Shown: positions 4,878 through 9,952 of the stretch, piece by piece | Position numbering within the stretch: the first letter of the stretch is position 1 | Layout of the letters: each line of letters begins with the position of its first letter | DNA from: a virus | IMG/VR virus record: IMGVR_UViG_3300047667_000671 | Location: 1 to 20,455 of that record | Direction: 5' to 3' (one strand) | DNA length: 20,455 nucleotides | Notes under the pieces: generated by a model | Databases searched by the model: none | Seen by the model: the letters and a program-made list of their open reading frames with translations, nothing else | Told to the model about the DNA's origin: nothing | Program-made: the position numbers and the translations under genes

Positions 4878-6068
4878 ATGCCACTAGATCTAATTGACGT
4901 ACAACGTCAGCCCGTCGAAATCCTGCTGAAAGAGCTTAAAGCTACTAGCCAGCACGACTCCAAAGAAGCCGGCATCAAGCTGACTCAGAAAGCCAAGGAA
5001 GCTGGTCTCGGCCTTCGTGACTTTTTGACACTGGCCGTTGACACCCGCACCGGTGAAAACAAGGAGCGTTACGGCGCTGCTCAGCTTTCAGGCTATGAAG
5101 CGGCACTGGACTATCTGAACTTGCCAATTCGCAACGACCTCGTCGAGGGTGTCGTTCTGCAGGCTTCTTCTGAGACGTTCCAGACGTATCCAGGAACTCG
5201 GGCACTGTTCCCCGAGGTTGTCGACGACATGTTGCGTTGGAAAGATCGTCAAGAGATGATCGAAACAACTGACGCGATGATTTCTCAGTCCCGTACCATC
5301 GCTGGTTCAGAACTGATCTCCACGGTTATGGAACCAGATGCTGACGAACGTGGCTCGTTCACAGTCCCAGAACTGGCCAACATTCCTGTCCGCACGATCC
5401 GCAGCTCGCAGACCACTGTTGGTATGTTTAAGCACGGTTCGGCTTACCGGACATCGTATGAGTTCAACCGCCGTGCTTCCTTGGACATCTTGACACCTTT
5501 CGCAGCTCGAGTCGCTCGTCAGTTGGAAATTTCCAAAGTTGGTGCTGCAACATCTGTTCTCATCAATGGTGATGGCGTGAATGATGCGGCTCCAGTCGTT
5601 ACATTGGGCTCCTTCGGCGGAGTCTTCGCAGACGGTAAAACGTTGAAGAACAACTACCAAGCTCTGGCGAAGTTCATCATGTCCCGTGCCAAAACTGGTA
5701 ATCCAGTCGACACTTTGACGGGTAATTTTGATACCTTCATCGAGCTGTGGTTGATGTCTGCTCCTACCAACCAATCCGGTAGCACAACTGACATTGAAAA
5801 GCTCGGCGCAGCTGGCGGCCCTTCCTTGGCTCTGCCAATCCTGGGTAATGGACTTGTAAACTTCACGTTCTCCTCAGGCATGCCCGACGATATGCTCATG
5901 GCTTACTCCAAGGGCGAAACGTTGGAAGAGCTGGTTGAAGCTGGTGCTTCTATCTCTGAGAACGAGCGTTCCATCACGAACCAGTCGGTTGTGTATGTCC
6001 GCACAGAGACCACAGGCTACAAGCTGGCCTTCGGCGATACTCGCACCATGTTGGACTGCTCCCAGTAA
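4878..6068 (+). CDS. Major capsid protein, HK97 fold
   Basis: The 396-residue length suits a shell protein that builds the icosahedral head. The N-terminal ~80 residues are charged and helical (LLKELKATSQHDSKEAGIKL), like a delta domain or retained scaffold-like arm. Then come features typical of HK97-fold subunits: an extended beta/E-loop region (ELISTVMEPDADERGSF), a long spine-helix region (SLDILTPFAARVARQLEISK), and a Gly-rich turn after it (LINGDGVNDAAP). The C-terminal ~100 residues include the strand VVYVRTETTGYKLAF. The gene follows the decoration gene, has an upstream AAGGAGAA, and is closed by a strong terminator, as expected for the most abundant virion protein. No cleavage site for the protease is obvious. 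Confidence 0.87.
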   Translation: MPLDLIDVQRQPVEILLKELKATSQHDSKEAGIKLTQKAKEAGLGLRDFLTLAVDTRTGENKERYGAAQLSGYEAALDYLNLPIRNDLVEGVVLQASSETFQTYPGTRALFPEVVDDMLRWKDRQEMIETTDAMISQSRTIAGSELISTVMEPDADERGSFTVPELANIPVRTIRSSQTTVGMFKHGSAYRTSYEFNRRASLDILTPFAARVARQLEISKVGAATSVLINGDGVNDAAPVVTLGSFGGVFADGKTLKNNYQALAKFIMSRAKTGNPVDTLTGNFDTFIELWLMSAPTNQSGSTTDIEKLGAAGGPSLALPILGNGLVNFTFSSGMPDDMLMAYSKGETLEELVEAGASISENERSITNQSVVYVRTETTGYKLAFGDTRTMLDCSQ

Positions 6069-7738: not shown

Positions 7739-8421
7739 TGGCAAAGAATGCTTTCGAAGTTGCGAGTGTGTTCGCCACACAGAAGGTCGTCAACACGGCG
7801 GGGGCTGCCGCTGAGGACCTCCGTAACAGGATTGACCTTTATGTAAAACAATACACCAAGGCCTTTTATTTCCAGATGTTTGTTTATTTGTACAACGGTG
7901 GGTCTGCAAAATATAAAGGTCTCAGCGAGGGGTATGAGGATAAAAAACAACAAAGAGGTTTACCCCTACCCTCGTTCTACCGATTTACTGGGAAGCTCAA
8001 AACCGAGCTTAGACGAAGAAACCCTAGTCGAGACCTTGGTCAGGCTAAGGTTACGTTTGGGACTAAGGGTGGCACCCTGAAAAAAGGGATAAAACGCGAC
8101 TCAAGGGGTATACCACAATTTAAAGCGGGCTCTGGGGGGCGAGGCTTTGCGTCAATCTCTCAAGCCTTCAAGTCAGTCAACTTTGATATCACGATTGAGA
8201 TGTACAGTAGCATAAAGGGCGGTAACTACGACCAAGTCTTCGCGAAGTATAATCAAAAGCTGAGAATGAAATTTGCCAGCCAAGAGTTTGGTACCAAGAA
8301 GGCTTCAGGTTCAATTCCCGCCCGACCACTCCTCGTACCCTTTGCCCGTTGGTATGGGACGACCCGTCTCCGCACAGGTCTAAAGCAGAGATTCCCAACA
8401 ATAAATGTGAGAAAATTATGA
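7738..8421 (+). CDS. Tail completion protein, gpZ/HK97 gp10-like
   Basis: The 227-residue basic protein occupies the slot of lambda Z/HK97 gp10, which sits at the head-proximal end of the tail and helps it join the head. Features in keeping: an N-terminal helix, a positively charged middle (TGKLKTELRRRNPSRD) and the C-terminal PARPLLVPFARW, matching the family's common 'PaRPfl.pa' signature near the end. Arg and Ile codons here include more AGA/AGG/ATA than in neighbouring genes, perhaps a different ancestry. The ATG overlaps the preceding stop and its own TGA overlaps the next ATG (ATGA at 8418-8421), indicating translational coupling on both sides. Confidence 0.65.
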   Translation: MAKNAFEVASVFATQKVVNTAGAAAEDLRNRIDLYVKQYTKAFYFQMFVYLYNGGSAKYKGLSEGYEDKKQQRGLPLPSFYRFTGKLKTELRRRNPSRDLGQAKVTFGTKGGTLKKGIKRDSRGIPQFKAGSGGRGFASISQAFKSVNFDITIEMYSSIKGGNYDQVFAKYNQKLRMKFASQEFGTKKASGSIPARPLLVPFARWYGTTRLRTGLKQRFPTINVRKL

Positions 8422-8849
8422 CCCGTCAGAACATCTACCGTGACATCCAAGCTTCCCTAATCCGGTTCAGCCGTGACTTTGGAGACCTGCATGGTTTGGA
8501 TTTTGTAAACCTTGATGCCTCGACAAATGCTGAGGATTGGCCGGCCGGCGACTTCATTGGCATCGGTGAACTGAATGTGGAAGTTTTCGAGTGGGACGAA
8601 ATTTCATTGTCCTTCGCGATCTCAACTAAAGATGACAGCAATCTTCTGAAAATGAGTGACCTGATAAATAAACTTGCCAACGAGGTTATGCCTGGATCGT
8701 CCATCCCTGTTCTCGACGCCGAAAACGGAGTAAAGAAAGCCTCTATGCTCGTCACGAATGGCGTCAAAATTGGGACTGTGATGGATACAGACTTCCAGCC
8801 GCTTCAGCCGATTATAGTCCATCTTATATCGGATTATCATAGCGCTTAA
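8418..8849 (+). CDS. Tail terminator protein, gpU-like
   Basis: This 143-residue protein lies between the completion protein and the tail tube gene, where lambda U sits. Tail terminators form a hexameric ring that stops tube growth and gives the head-joining face. The pattern fits the gpU alpha/beta fold: an initial helix (YRDIQASLIRFSRDF), strands ELNVEVFEWDEISLSFAI, a helix DLINKLANEVMP, and a last strand (FQPLQPIIVHLISDYH). I chose the ATG at 8418, which overlaps the previous stop, rather than the in-frame ATG 69 bases upstream that lies inside the previous gene. The last 26 bases overlap the minus-strand ribbon-helix-helix gene. Confidence 0.65.
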   Translation: MTRQNIYRDIQASLIRFSRDFGDLHGLDFVNLDASTNAEDWPAGDFIGIGELNVEVFEWDEISLSFAISTKDDSNLLKMSDLINKLANEVMPGSSIPVLDAENGVKKASMLVTNGVKIGTVMDTDFQPLQPIIVHLISDYHSA

Positions 8850-9012
8850 CGACCTGCAGGTCTTGATCTACAGAGCTATCAATCCCGTGCTCTAGCAGCA
8901 CGAGGATCTCTGCATTCCGGACCCTGCGGTGAATAGCAGCTCGGGTATCGATTTGGTCTTTTAGTTCACGAGGTATGCGAACGGTAAAGGCTACGATGTC
9001 GTTATCTCTCAT
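8824..9012 (-). CDS. Arc/Mnt-type ribbon-helix-helix DNA-binding protein
   Basis: This is the only convincing minus-strand gene. It encodes 62 residues. The N-terminus VAFTVRIPRELKDQIDTRAA matches the Arc family: a short beta-strand with F9, T10, R12 and P14 aligning with Arc F10, N11, R13 and P15, then helix A. NAEILVLLEHGI matches the conserved NAEI at the start of helix B. Such proteins dimerise through the strand, which enters the DNA major groove; in P22, Arc represses transcription. The ATG has a modest GGAAA site. The C-terminal ~20 residues (SSVDQDLQVVKRYDNPI) have no known match. The gene converges on the tail terminator gene, overlapping it by 26 bases, and diverges from the tail tube gene. 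Target and role are unknown; autoregulation is inferred from nearby repeats. Confidence 0.82.
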   Translation of the reverse strand: MRDNDIVAFTVRIPRELKDQIDTRAAIHRRVRNAEILVLLEHGIDSSVDQDLQVVKRYDNPI

Positions 9013-9026
9013 TGACTTTCCAATCT

Positions 9027-9054
9027 ATTGTATGAACCACAAATAACCTTAGAT
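9027..9054 (-). promoter_or_regulatory. Candidate promoter of the ribbon-helix-helix gene
   Basis: On the minus strand TACAAT (9032 down to 9027) matches five of six bases of the -10 consensus. A three-of-six -35 (TTATCT) lies about 18 bases upstream within the direct repeats. The implied transcript would begin only ~8-10 bases before the ATG. The overlap with both repeat types fits a repressible promoter. Tentative. Confidence 0.35.
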
Positions 9055-9077
9055 AACCTTTGTGTCTACTGTGGTTC
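9034..9077. promoter_or_regulatory. Inverted repeat in the RHH/tail-tube intergenic region
   Basis: GAACCACA (9034-9041) and TGTGGTTC (9070-9077) are perfect 8-bp inverted arms around 28 bases. The interval lies between the divergent ribbon-helix-helix and tail tube starts. This two-fold symmetry suits a dimeric or tetrameric regulator; it could also form a long-loop hairpin. Confidence 0.45.
9043..9060. repeat. Tandem 8-bp direct repeats, possible RHH operator
   Basis: ATAACCTT occurs at 9043-9050 and again at 9053-9060, exactly 10 bp apart (about one helical turn), inside the inverted repeat. Ribbon-helix-helix repressors commonly bind short half-sites on one DNA face at such spacing. The same 8-mer also occurs singly near 15538 inside a coding gene, probably by chance. 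Confidence 0.5.
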
Positions 9078-9128
9078 TTCATGTAGTTTGCAAGTTGAAG
9101 AGAATTAAACCTTGAATGGAGAAGTCCT

Positions 9129-9887
9129 ATGGCTGGAGAAGCCCGCAGTAATAAATTTATGCTCGCCACCGCGACGGTAATGCTTGGCCCACGCGAGCAG
9201 GTTTTCGACCTCACACCGGATGAGCATTCGATCGGTCTCGTCAAAAATTTCCGAGCCACGTCTGAACCGTCTTACACAGACCTGACCCAAGGCGTGAAGA
9301 ACACCACCGTCTATTCTGTGATGACCGGTAACGTCGTCCGAGCTTCGATGGAGGCATATGAGTACACGGCCCAAAACGTGACTTATGCTCTTGGTCTCGA
9401 AGGGGCTACAATCACGGATGCTGTCGCTGAAACAGATCTTTCTGGTGAGGCTATAAAGGATGACACAGATCTCACCGTTACTGATGAGACTGATTTTGTG
9501 GTCGACGATTACGTCATGATTCAGCAGGGCAGCGATGATCAAGTTTATGTTCGCCAGATTACTGCTGTCACTACAGGTCAGATCACCTTCGCTGAAGGGT
9601 TGCCGACTGCGTTGGCAATTGGAACCGCGGTTCGCAAGTCTAACGTCATTGCAGTGGGTTCCAAAGCTGATCAGCCTTACTTGGCGGCGAAAATCGTCGG
9701 TTCACTGGCAGATGGCTCCCCCGTGTCGATGATCTGCCCAAAGATCCGTATCACCAATGGTTTCTCCTTTGGCTTTACGACTGAGGGCTTCGACAACATG
9801 CCGTTGGAATTCTCCTTCTACGATTCCGTTGCGGGCGATCCGTTCTACAGCAAGTTCAAAGACAGTCAAGCTCAACTCCACATGTAA
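9129..9887 (+). CDS. Major tail protein (tail tube)
   Basis: The 252-residue protein is in the lambda V position and would polymerise as stacked hexamers around the tape measure. It is beta-rich. N-terminal strands (NKFMLATATVMLGPREQVFDL) are followed by a Thr/Asp-rich segment (DTDLTVTDETDFVVDDYVMI) that reads like an inserted beta domain. The C-terminal strands are SMICPKIRITNGFSFGF and MPLEFSFYDS. GGAG with a 7-base spacer precedes the ATG. A strong terminator follows at once, as after the capsid gene, consistent with high expression. No Ig-like C-terminal decoration domain as in lambda V is evident after the last tube strands. Assignment is by order, length and strand pattern. Confidence 0.78.
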   Translation: MAGEARSNKFMLATATVMLGPREQVFDLTPDEHSIGLVKNFRATSEPSYTDLTQGVKNTTVYSVMTGNVVRASMEAYEYTAQNVTYALGLEGATITDAVAETDLSGEAIKDDTDLTVTDETDFVVDDYVMIQQGSDDQVYVRQITAVTTGQITFAEGLPTALAIGTAVRKSNVIAVGSKADQPYLAAKIVGSLADGSPVSMICPKIRITNGFSFGFTTEGFDNMPLEFSFYDSVAGDPFYSKFKDSQAQLHM

Positions 9888-9894
9888 GTTGACC

Positions 9895-9935
9895 AGTGTC
9901 CTCCCGCCGTATACTGGTAGGGGGACACTTTTCAT
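9895..9935 (+). terminator. Rho-independent terminator after the tail tube gene
   Basis: A 10-bp stem (9895-9904 with 9920-9929, one T-G wobble) has a 15-base loop and is followed by TTTTCATTT. An overlapping smaller pairing, ACCAGT (9892-9897) with ACTGGT (9913-9918), is also possible. It lies eight bases past the tube stop and, like the one after the capsid gene, must be partly read through for the tail genes to be expressed. Confidence 0.8.
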
Positions 9936-9952
9936 TTGGAGATCTAAGTTAA

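Follow-up and report, generated by a model that had tools for sequence, protein, structure and literature searches.

Our analysis of the window, which is the complete virus record of 20,455 bases and to which the work on this phage was confined, indicates that a ribbon-helix-helix (RHH) gene of the Arc/Mnt type, located on the minus strand between an upstream late gene and the tail tube gene, is very likely a local regulator of the tube, judging from sequence comparisons. The conservation of this gene and the candidate sites that match it suggest a dedicated, self-controlled tail-tube switch of which we found no description. The reading that we favor is that the gene probably encodes a dedicated, autoregulated protein that controls the tail-tube transcription unit locally and most likely represses it.

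The minus-strand open reading frame at 8824-9012, which the sequence-only reading had already assigned to this family, encodes a protein of 62 residues that begins MRDNDIVAFTVRIPRELKDQIDTRAAIHRRVRNAEILVLLEHGID and carries the beta strand AFTVRIP; by eye, its ATG start codon (9010-9012) is preceded by a Shine-Dalgarno-like GGAAAG (9010-9021 with the start codon, minus strand). The protein matched the Pfam Arc family (PF03869) with an E value of 1e-6 and 28.9 bits (gathering score 20.4), and its AlphaFold2 model, computed for a monomer while the beta strand of the RHH fold requires a dimer, had a mean pLDDT of 89.4 (about 96 in residues 11-50) and helices at residues 15-27 and 32-59, in agreement with the RHH fold. 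The top Foldseek matches among solved structures were AmrZ-DNA and Arc-operator, as anticipated from the proposed likeness to Arc, with CopG listed too (TMt 0.84 for AmrZ 3qoq_D, 0.82 for an Arc mutant, and 0.86 for CopG), and AmrZ was also the best phmmer match in the PDB. Additionally, the RHH domains of antitoxins ranked level with Arc and AmrZ in VIA-align, and therefore the fold is unable to separate a repressor from an antitoxin. The alternating polar beta-strand residues A8, T10, and R12 align with H6, N8, and R10 of Mnt and, considering the contact roles of those Mnt residues, are presumably the DNA contacts; T10 is nearly invariant and R12 common among the RHH proteins of relatives. 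The length of the frame was not significant, since an ATG frame as long as this one arose in some reading frame when the 305-bp region was shuffled (170 of 2000 shuffles), and it is homology and selection, rather than length, that identify the frame as real and coding. Based on the profile match and the predicted structure, 8824-9012 encodes a genuine Arc/Mnt-family RHH protein.

The plus-strand late gene at 8418-8849 is convergent with the RHH gene and overlaps its 3' end by 26 bp, and both this overlap and the divergence from the tube gene were as previously described. In relatives, 26 of the 27 loci measured show a 3' overlap of 4-68 bp between these two genes. The upstream gene had no Pfam match, and its designation as a tail terminator stands by position alone, whereas the proposed identity of the other neighbor was upheld by its fold. 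This gene (major tail protein; 9129-9887, plus strand), separated from the RHH gene by a divergent gap of 116 bp up to its ATG at 9129, matched phrog_28493, as did all 14 tube-homologue members tested, six of which also matched "major tail protein with Ig-like domain". The fold matched that of the phage Mystique tail tube solved by cryo-EM (9n71; Z 19.8, rmsd 7.6, 29% identity over 248 residues), supporting a real tail tube.

An intrinsic terminator follows the tube gene at 9895-9932 (plus strand); it was absent from the initial scan owing to a loop-length limit and was recovered by refolding, the 58 nucleotides at 9888-9945 folding at -24 kcal/mol (z -2.8). A terminator at this place is also annotated in Achromobacter phage JWF and was recognized by eye in nearly all relatives, and the tube can therefore form its own transcription unit. 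Interleaved with the terminator in the window is a promoter-like sequence seen by eye, TTGACC-15-TATACT (9889-9915, plus strand), upstream of the tape-measure chaperone gene. This promoter-within-terminator arrangement recurs by eye after the tube gene (9889-9932 in the window, 5799-5890 in locus L053, and other relatives) in the form TTG-N15-18-TA/CATxxT, with the -10 inside the hairpin and the chaperone gene downstream; examples are TTGAAG-17-CATAAT in L012 and TTGCTG-17-TAAGAT in L020.

The upstream region attributed to the RHH gene does exist and contains operator-like repeats. The candidate operator op1 (9035-9059, minus strand), which reads AGGTTATCTA-AGGTTATTTG-TGGTT from 9059 down to 9035, consists of three WGGTT half-sites with 10-bp spacing, a triple that occurred in one of 5000 dinucleotide shuffles. 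The gap of Xylophilus phage Lumi likewise holds three direct half-sites, while two direct and one inverted half-site (GGT-10-GGT-13-ACC) are present in JWF, in Achromobacter phage 2-1, and in L010-L015, L017, L019, L020, L022, and L025. The tandem WGGT-N6-WGGT was found in 16/16 distinct loci whose RHH protein has an A-x-T/S-x-R-like beta strand and in 0/15 of the others (0.3-2.5% per gap in shuffled gaps), a division that was drawn after inspection of the gaps and in which the 16 loci amount to about seven independent clusters. Two loci depart from the pattern of residues: L014 has P instead of A in the beta strand, yet retains the tandem, and L028 has A, T, and R at the presumed contact positions by register, but lacks it. 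We regard the op1 half-sites as candidate binding sites of the RHH protein.

Two promoter positions can be assigned in the gap of the window. The tube promoter (TTGTGT-18-TAGTTT, 9060-9089, plus strand) is placed by homology, being weak in the window with an offset that is conserved in relatives, and a possible RHH promoter (TTATCT-18-TACAAT, 9027-9056, minus strand) overlaps op1 (p 0.56 against shuffles). Neither scored better than shuffles, and a sigma70 consensus scan of the window found no promoter in this gap; the positions in the window thus rest on homology. Among the 16 motif-bearing loci, the distance from the operator start to the start of the best plus-strand sigma70-like promoter is exactly 14 bp in 13 (15 bp in Lumi), and in most of them the half-sites abut the promoter-like -35 of the tube. 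Scores of these plus-strand promoters were best in Lumi, L010, and L011 (p 0.01 or less) and unremarkable in JWF (p about 0.3). Moreover, the overlapping promoter on the minus strand of Lumi, TTGCCT-17-TATCAT (p 0.03), places the operator at the transcription start of the regulator.

The window groups with phages JWF, 2-1, and Lumi, with Caulobacter phage Seuss, and with prophages of Burkholderia paludis, Inquilinus limosus, and Mesorhizobium. Examination of related phages for a gene at the same junction revealed that, of 48 loci encoding a tube homologue in these ~80-kb JWF-like siphoviruses, 38 have a minus-strand RHH gene between the upstream gene and the tube, a count that includes L027, where the tube is present twice and the RHH gene lies ahead of the first copy. 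The 48 loci were collected through the tube protein (a direct search of viral contigs with the RHH protein yielded three) and contain duplicate records, leaving 31 distinct RHH proteins once the offset L027 is removed. Among the ten remaining loci, L037 and L039-L042 carry an unassigned minus-strand frame at this place, with an RHH-like stretch by eye in L039-L042, and the gene is clearly absent from L029, L038, KB12-38, EAb13, and Mystique, where just 60-100 bp lie between the genes. These five loci of 48 indicate that the tube can function without the RHH gene.

The comparison of synonymous and non-synonymous changes gave dN/dS values of 0.03-0.29 in 14 pairs, denoting purifying selection on the RHH gene, and the Mantel correlations were 0.82 between RHH and tube, 0.84 between RHH and the upstream gene, and 0.90 between tube and upstream gene, the RHH gene thus following its two neighbors almost as closely as these follow one another. 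The view that the gene is undescribed does not hold for the gene as such, given that its orthologue in JWF (PJWF_00017; same junction and strand, 50% identical) is already annotated as "Arc-like DNA binding domain protein", although no paper discussing a role for PJWF_00017 was found; in Lumi and Seuss the gene is present but unannotated. Arc-family matches numbered one per genome in 9 of the 11 genomes searched and lay at the tube locus wherever coordinates were comparable. Phages with a tyrosine integrase match and phages lacking one both retain the RHH gene, which is therefore not tied to integration. Matches to this integrase occurred in five of eight IMG/VR relatives (G001, G002, G003, G005, and G007), and JWF, 2-1, Lumi, and Seuss had no match to PF00589. 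JWF has been reported as temperate from plaque morphology and UV induction (PMC3899368), and its record (KP202971.1) has a direct terminal repeat of 1466 bp. Two further variations were observed in the group. Seuss (L049, 4502-4858, minus strand) and L035 (4510-4890, minus strand) have RHH genes of about 120 codons with two RHH-profile stretches per chain, possibly a fused dimer, and L027 (4049-5001) has two tube-like genes in tandem with the RHH gene upstream of the first.

The strict motif AAAGGTTNTNTNWGGTW, with at most one mismatch, was detected in 13 phage records, each time at the RHH/tube junction, with one additional one-mismatch match in phage 2-1 (at 29464) and none in Lumi or Inquilinus. 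The 8.6-Mb genome of the B. paludis lysogen contains a single match, at the tube-gene position of the prophage. Host or competing-phage genes had been suggested as targets, and this near-complete restriction to the junction, with one match in the 8.6-Mb lysogen, speaks against them; the accompanying suggestion of local control of the gene's own promoter, the tube promoter, or both is the one that best fits the operator-like repeats upstream of the RHH gene. A genome-wide regulon was considered and rejected, as the other late gaps of JWF and 2-1 contain no further strict operator apart from the one-mismatch match in 2-1. One AACCTTTG half-site is found in the lysis-gene promoter region of JWF, 2-1, and L022, and the pre-lysis region and the tube promoter have AACCTTTG-N20/21-TAGAAT in common (33581-33614 in JWF and 33714-33748 in 2-1), which makes the pre-lysis promoter region of these two phages a possible further target. 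A degenerate single-site scan allowing two mismatches gave background levels and was uninformative by itself; it was the position of repeats after the tube gene that pointed to a second site (op2).

At this second site, GGT-N7-GGT or ACC-N7-ACC lies no more than 48 nucleotides past the tube stop codon in 13/16 motif-type loci versus 0/13 loci with other RHH proteins, with shuffle rates of 0.4-8% for such a pair. The spacing of these half-sites is mirrored relative to op1 in several loci. In the L012 group the GGT-10-GGT-13-ACC spacing appears in mirror image, and AGGTT-N6-GGTW-N9-ACC occurs twice per phage genome, on either side of the tube and in opposite orientation; in the whole B. paludis genome this pattern occurs exactly twice. 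After the tube stop codon of the window, Lumi, and L014, op2 is absent, and it is therefore outside what we claim for the window.

We propose that RHH dimers bind the tandem WGGT half-sites of the divergent gap, where they would adjoin the -35 of the tube and cover the regulator's own leader or promoter, so that the RHH gene would regulate itself and the tube promoter would most likely be repressed; in several relatives, the mirrored second site would perhaps extend repression to the post-tube promoter. Relief could come from late read-through from the upstream tail genes, which would traverse the convergent gene of the regulator in the antisense direction, and from operator copies produced by replication, which would dilute the RHH protein, and the tube would then be turned on sharply and late. 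Such a repressor would hold back the tube, an abundant self-assembling protein, until late transcription comes. Binding, the sign of regulation, and the mechanism of relief are what we infer from this arrangement, repression being the probable sign and activation a less probable, though still appreciable, one. A bolder version, in which an autoregulated RHH protein and three-half-site operators mirrored on both flanks of the tube are ancestral in the ~80-kb siphovirus clade, perhaps with looping over ~860 bp and an antisense reset, seems doubtful to us; with op1 at the tube promoter and op2 at the promoter that follows the tube, looping would insulate the tube as one switchable transcription domain within the late region.

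The same arrangement could be read in the opposite sense, with the RHH protein sitting directly upstream of the -35, recruiting RNA polymerase to the tube promoter and blocking its own. The operator does end, at a fixed offset, against the -35 of a sigma70-like promoter that is weak in most cases (TTGATT-17-TAGCAT type), and AmrZ, the best structural match, acts both as an activator and as a repressor. However, phage Arc/Mnt proteins and CopG are known chiefly as repressors, the three half-sites would overlap the edge of the -35 as well, and an activator that is expressed early would switch the tube on early unless it were timed itself, so that we consider this alternative fairly unlikely.

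In two further readings the tube is not the target. A leftover or modified form of P22-type immI control, with a lone Mnt-like repressor acting in immunity or maintenance in lysogens or on incoming phages rather than on tail genes as such, would account for the fold family and for a kind of location known from P22-like phages. It would also suit the existence of prophage members, the temperate behavior of JWF (PMC3899368), and the tail block of Erwinia phage Midgardsormr38, with its minus-strand RHH gene, second Arc, and two antirepressors. Nonetheless, it appears improbable, considering that the 11 genomes gave no match to a P22-type antirepressor (PF10547), that the gene is found equally in JWF, 2-1, Lumi, and Seuss without an integrase match, and that operator-like sites in the genomes are restricted to the flanks of the tube. 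The suggestion of a moron, or of antitoxin-like cargo that controls itself alone and lies next to the tube incidentally, is highly improbable in our judgment, even though the small size of the RHH gene, its opposite orientation, and its own upstream region would agree with it, as would the several antitoxins that rank close in fold by VIA-align. Most members of the clade have the gene at this one fixed junction, and it has diverged in step with its neighbors; this occurrence (38/48), the purifying selection, and the co-inheritance argue against a moron. Besides, no toxin gene adjoins the RHH gene, which in almost every locus is flanked by a convergent and a divergent virion gene, and the operator is phased to the tube promoter, with second sites just beyond the tube stop codon.

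Late phage genes are usually regarded as being turned on jointly by one late control. If the reading of a dedicated regulator is correct, the dosage or timing of the tail tube would need a feedback of its own, exerted through a private, self-limiting regulator of the most abundant tail protein that phages infecting diverse proteobacteria retain at a single junction. Tail tube proteins also trigger the bacterial defense DSR2 (cf. PDB entry 8k98), and restraint of the tube could, speculatively, bring a second benefit against DSR2-type defenses. A search of the open-licence literature for RHH regulators of tail genes gave nothing on point, and the JWF-like phages, in which operator and regulator covary, offer a ready test set.

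The notion that Arc/Mnt genes are foreign to structural blocks is contradicted by known phages, since mnt and arc of P22 are located inside the late operon (PMC2629481) and phage L retains an mnt homologue on its own there, lacking both arc and ant (PMC8022706). The immI region of P22 has even been proposed to affect the amount of tailspike by modulating read-through (PMC2629481). As in immI, the locus described here has, within a late block, an mnt-like RHH gene oriented against late transcription. In contrast to immI, neither ant nor the second repressor arc was found, PF10547 having no match and PF03869 at most one match per genome in the 11 genomes of relatives, and the RHH locus is not a P22 immI region given the missing antirepressor and second Arc. 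The neighbor is the tail tube here and the tailspike in P22, the P22-type ant moron is fast-changing and highly variable whereas the RHH gene is stably co-inherited, and the candidate operator lies at the promoter of the structural gene itself. The Midgardsormr38 set of opposite-strand RHH, second Arc, and two antirepressor genes (L004, 3991-6327), in a siphovirus tail block, is an immI-like cassette outside the P22-like podoviruses. CopG of plasmid pMV158 is likewise a short RHH protein (fold match 1b01) with operator-like repeats upstream of its own gene, but its target is the replication gene downstream in the same operon, while the partner here is a divergent virion gene. AmrZ of Pseudomonas aeruginosa is a larger, global bacterial regulator, whereas the RHH protein of these phages is a candidate local switch. 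Overall, what is distinctive in relation to known Arc/Mnt systems is that the RHH gene is stably paired with the tail tube gene, whose promoter carries the array.
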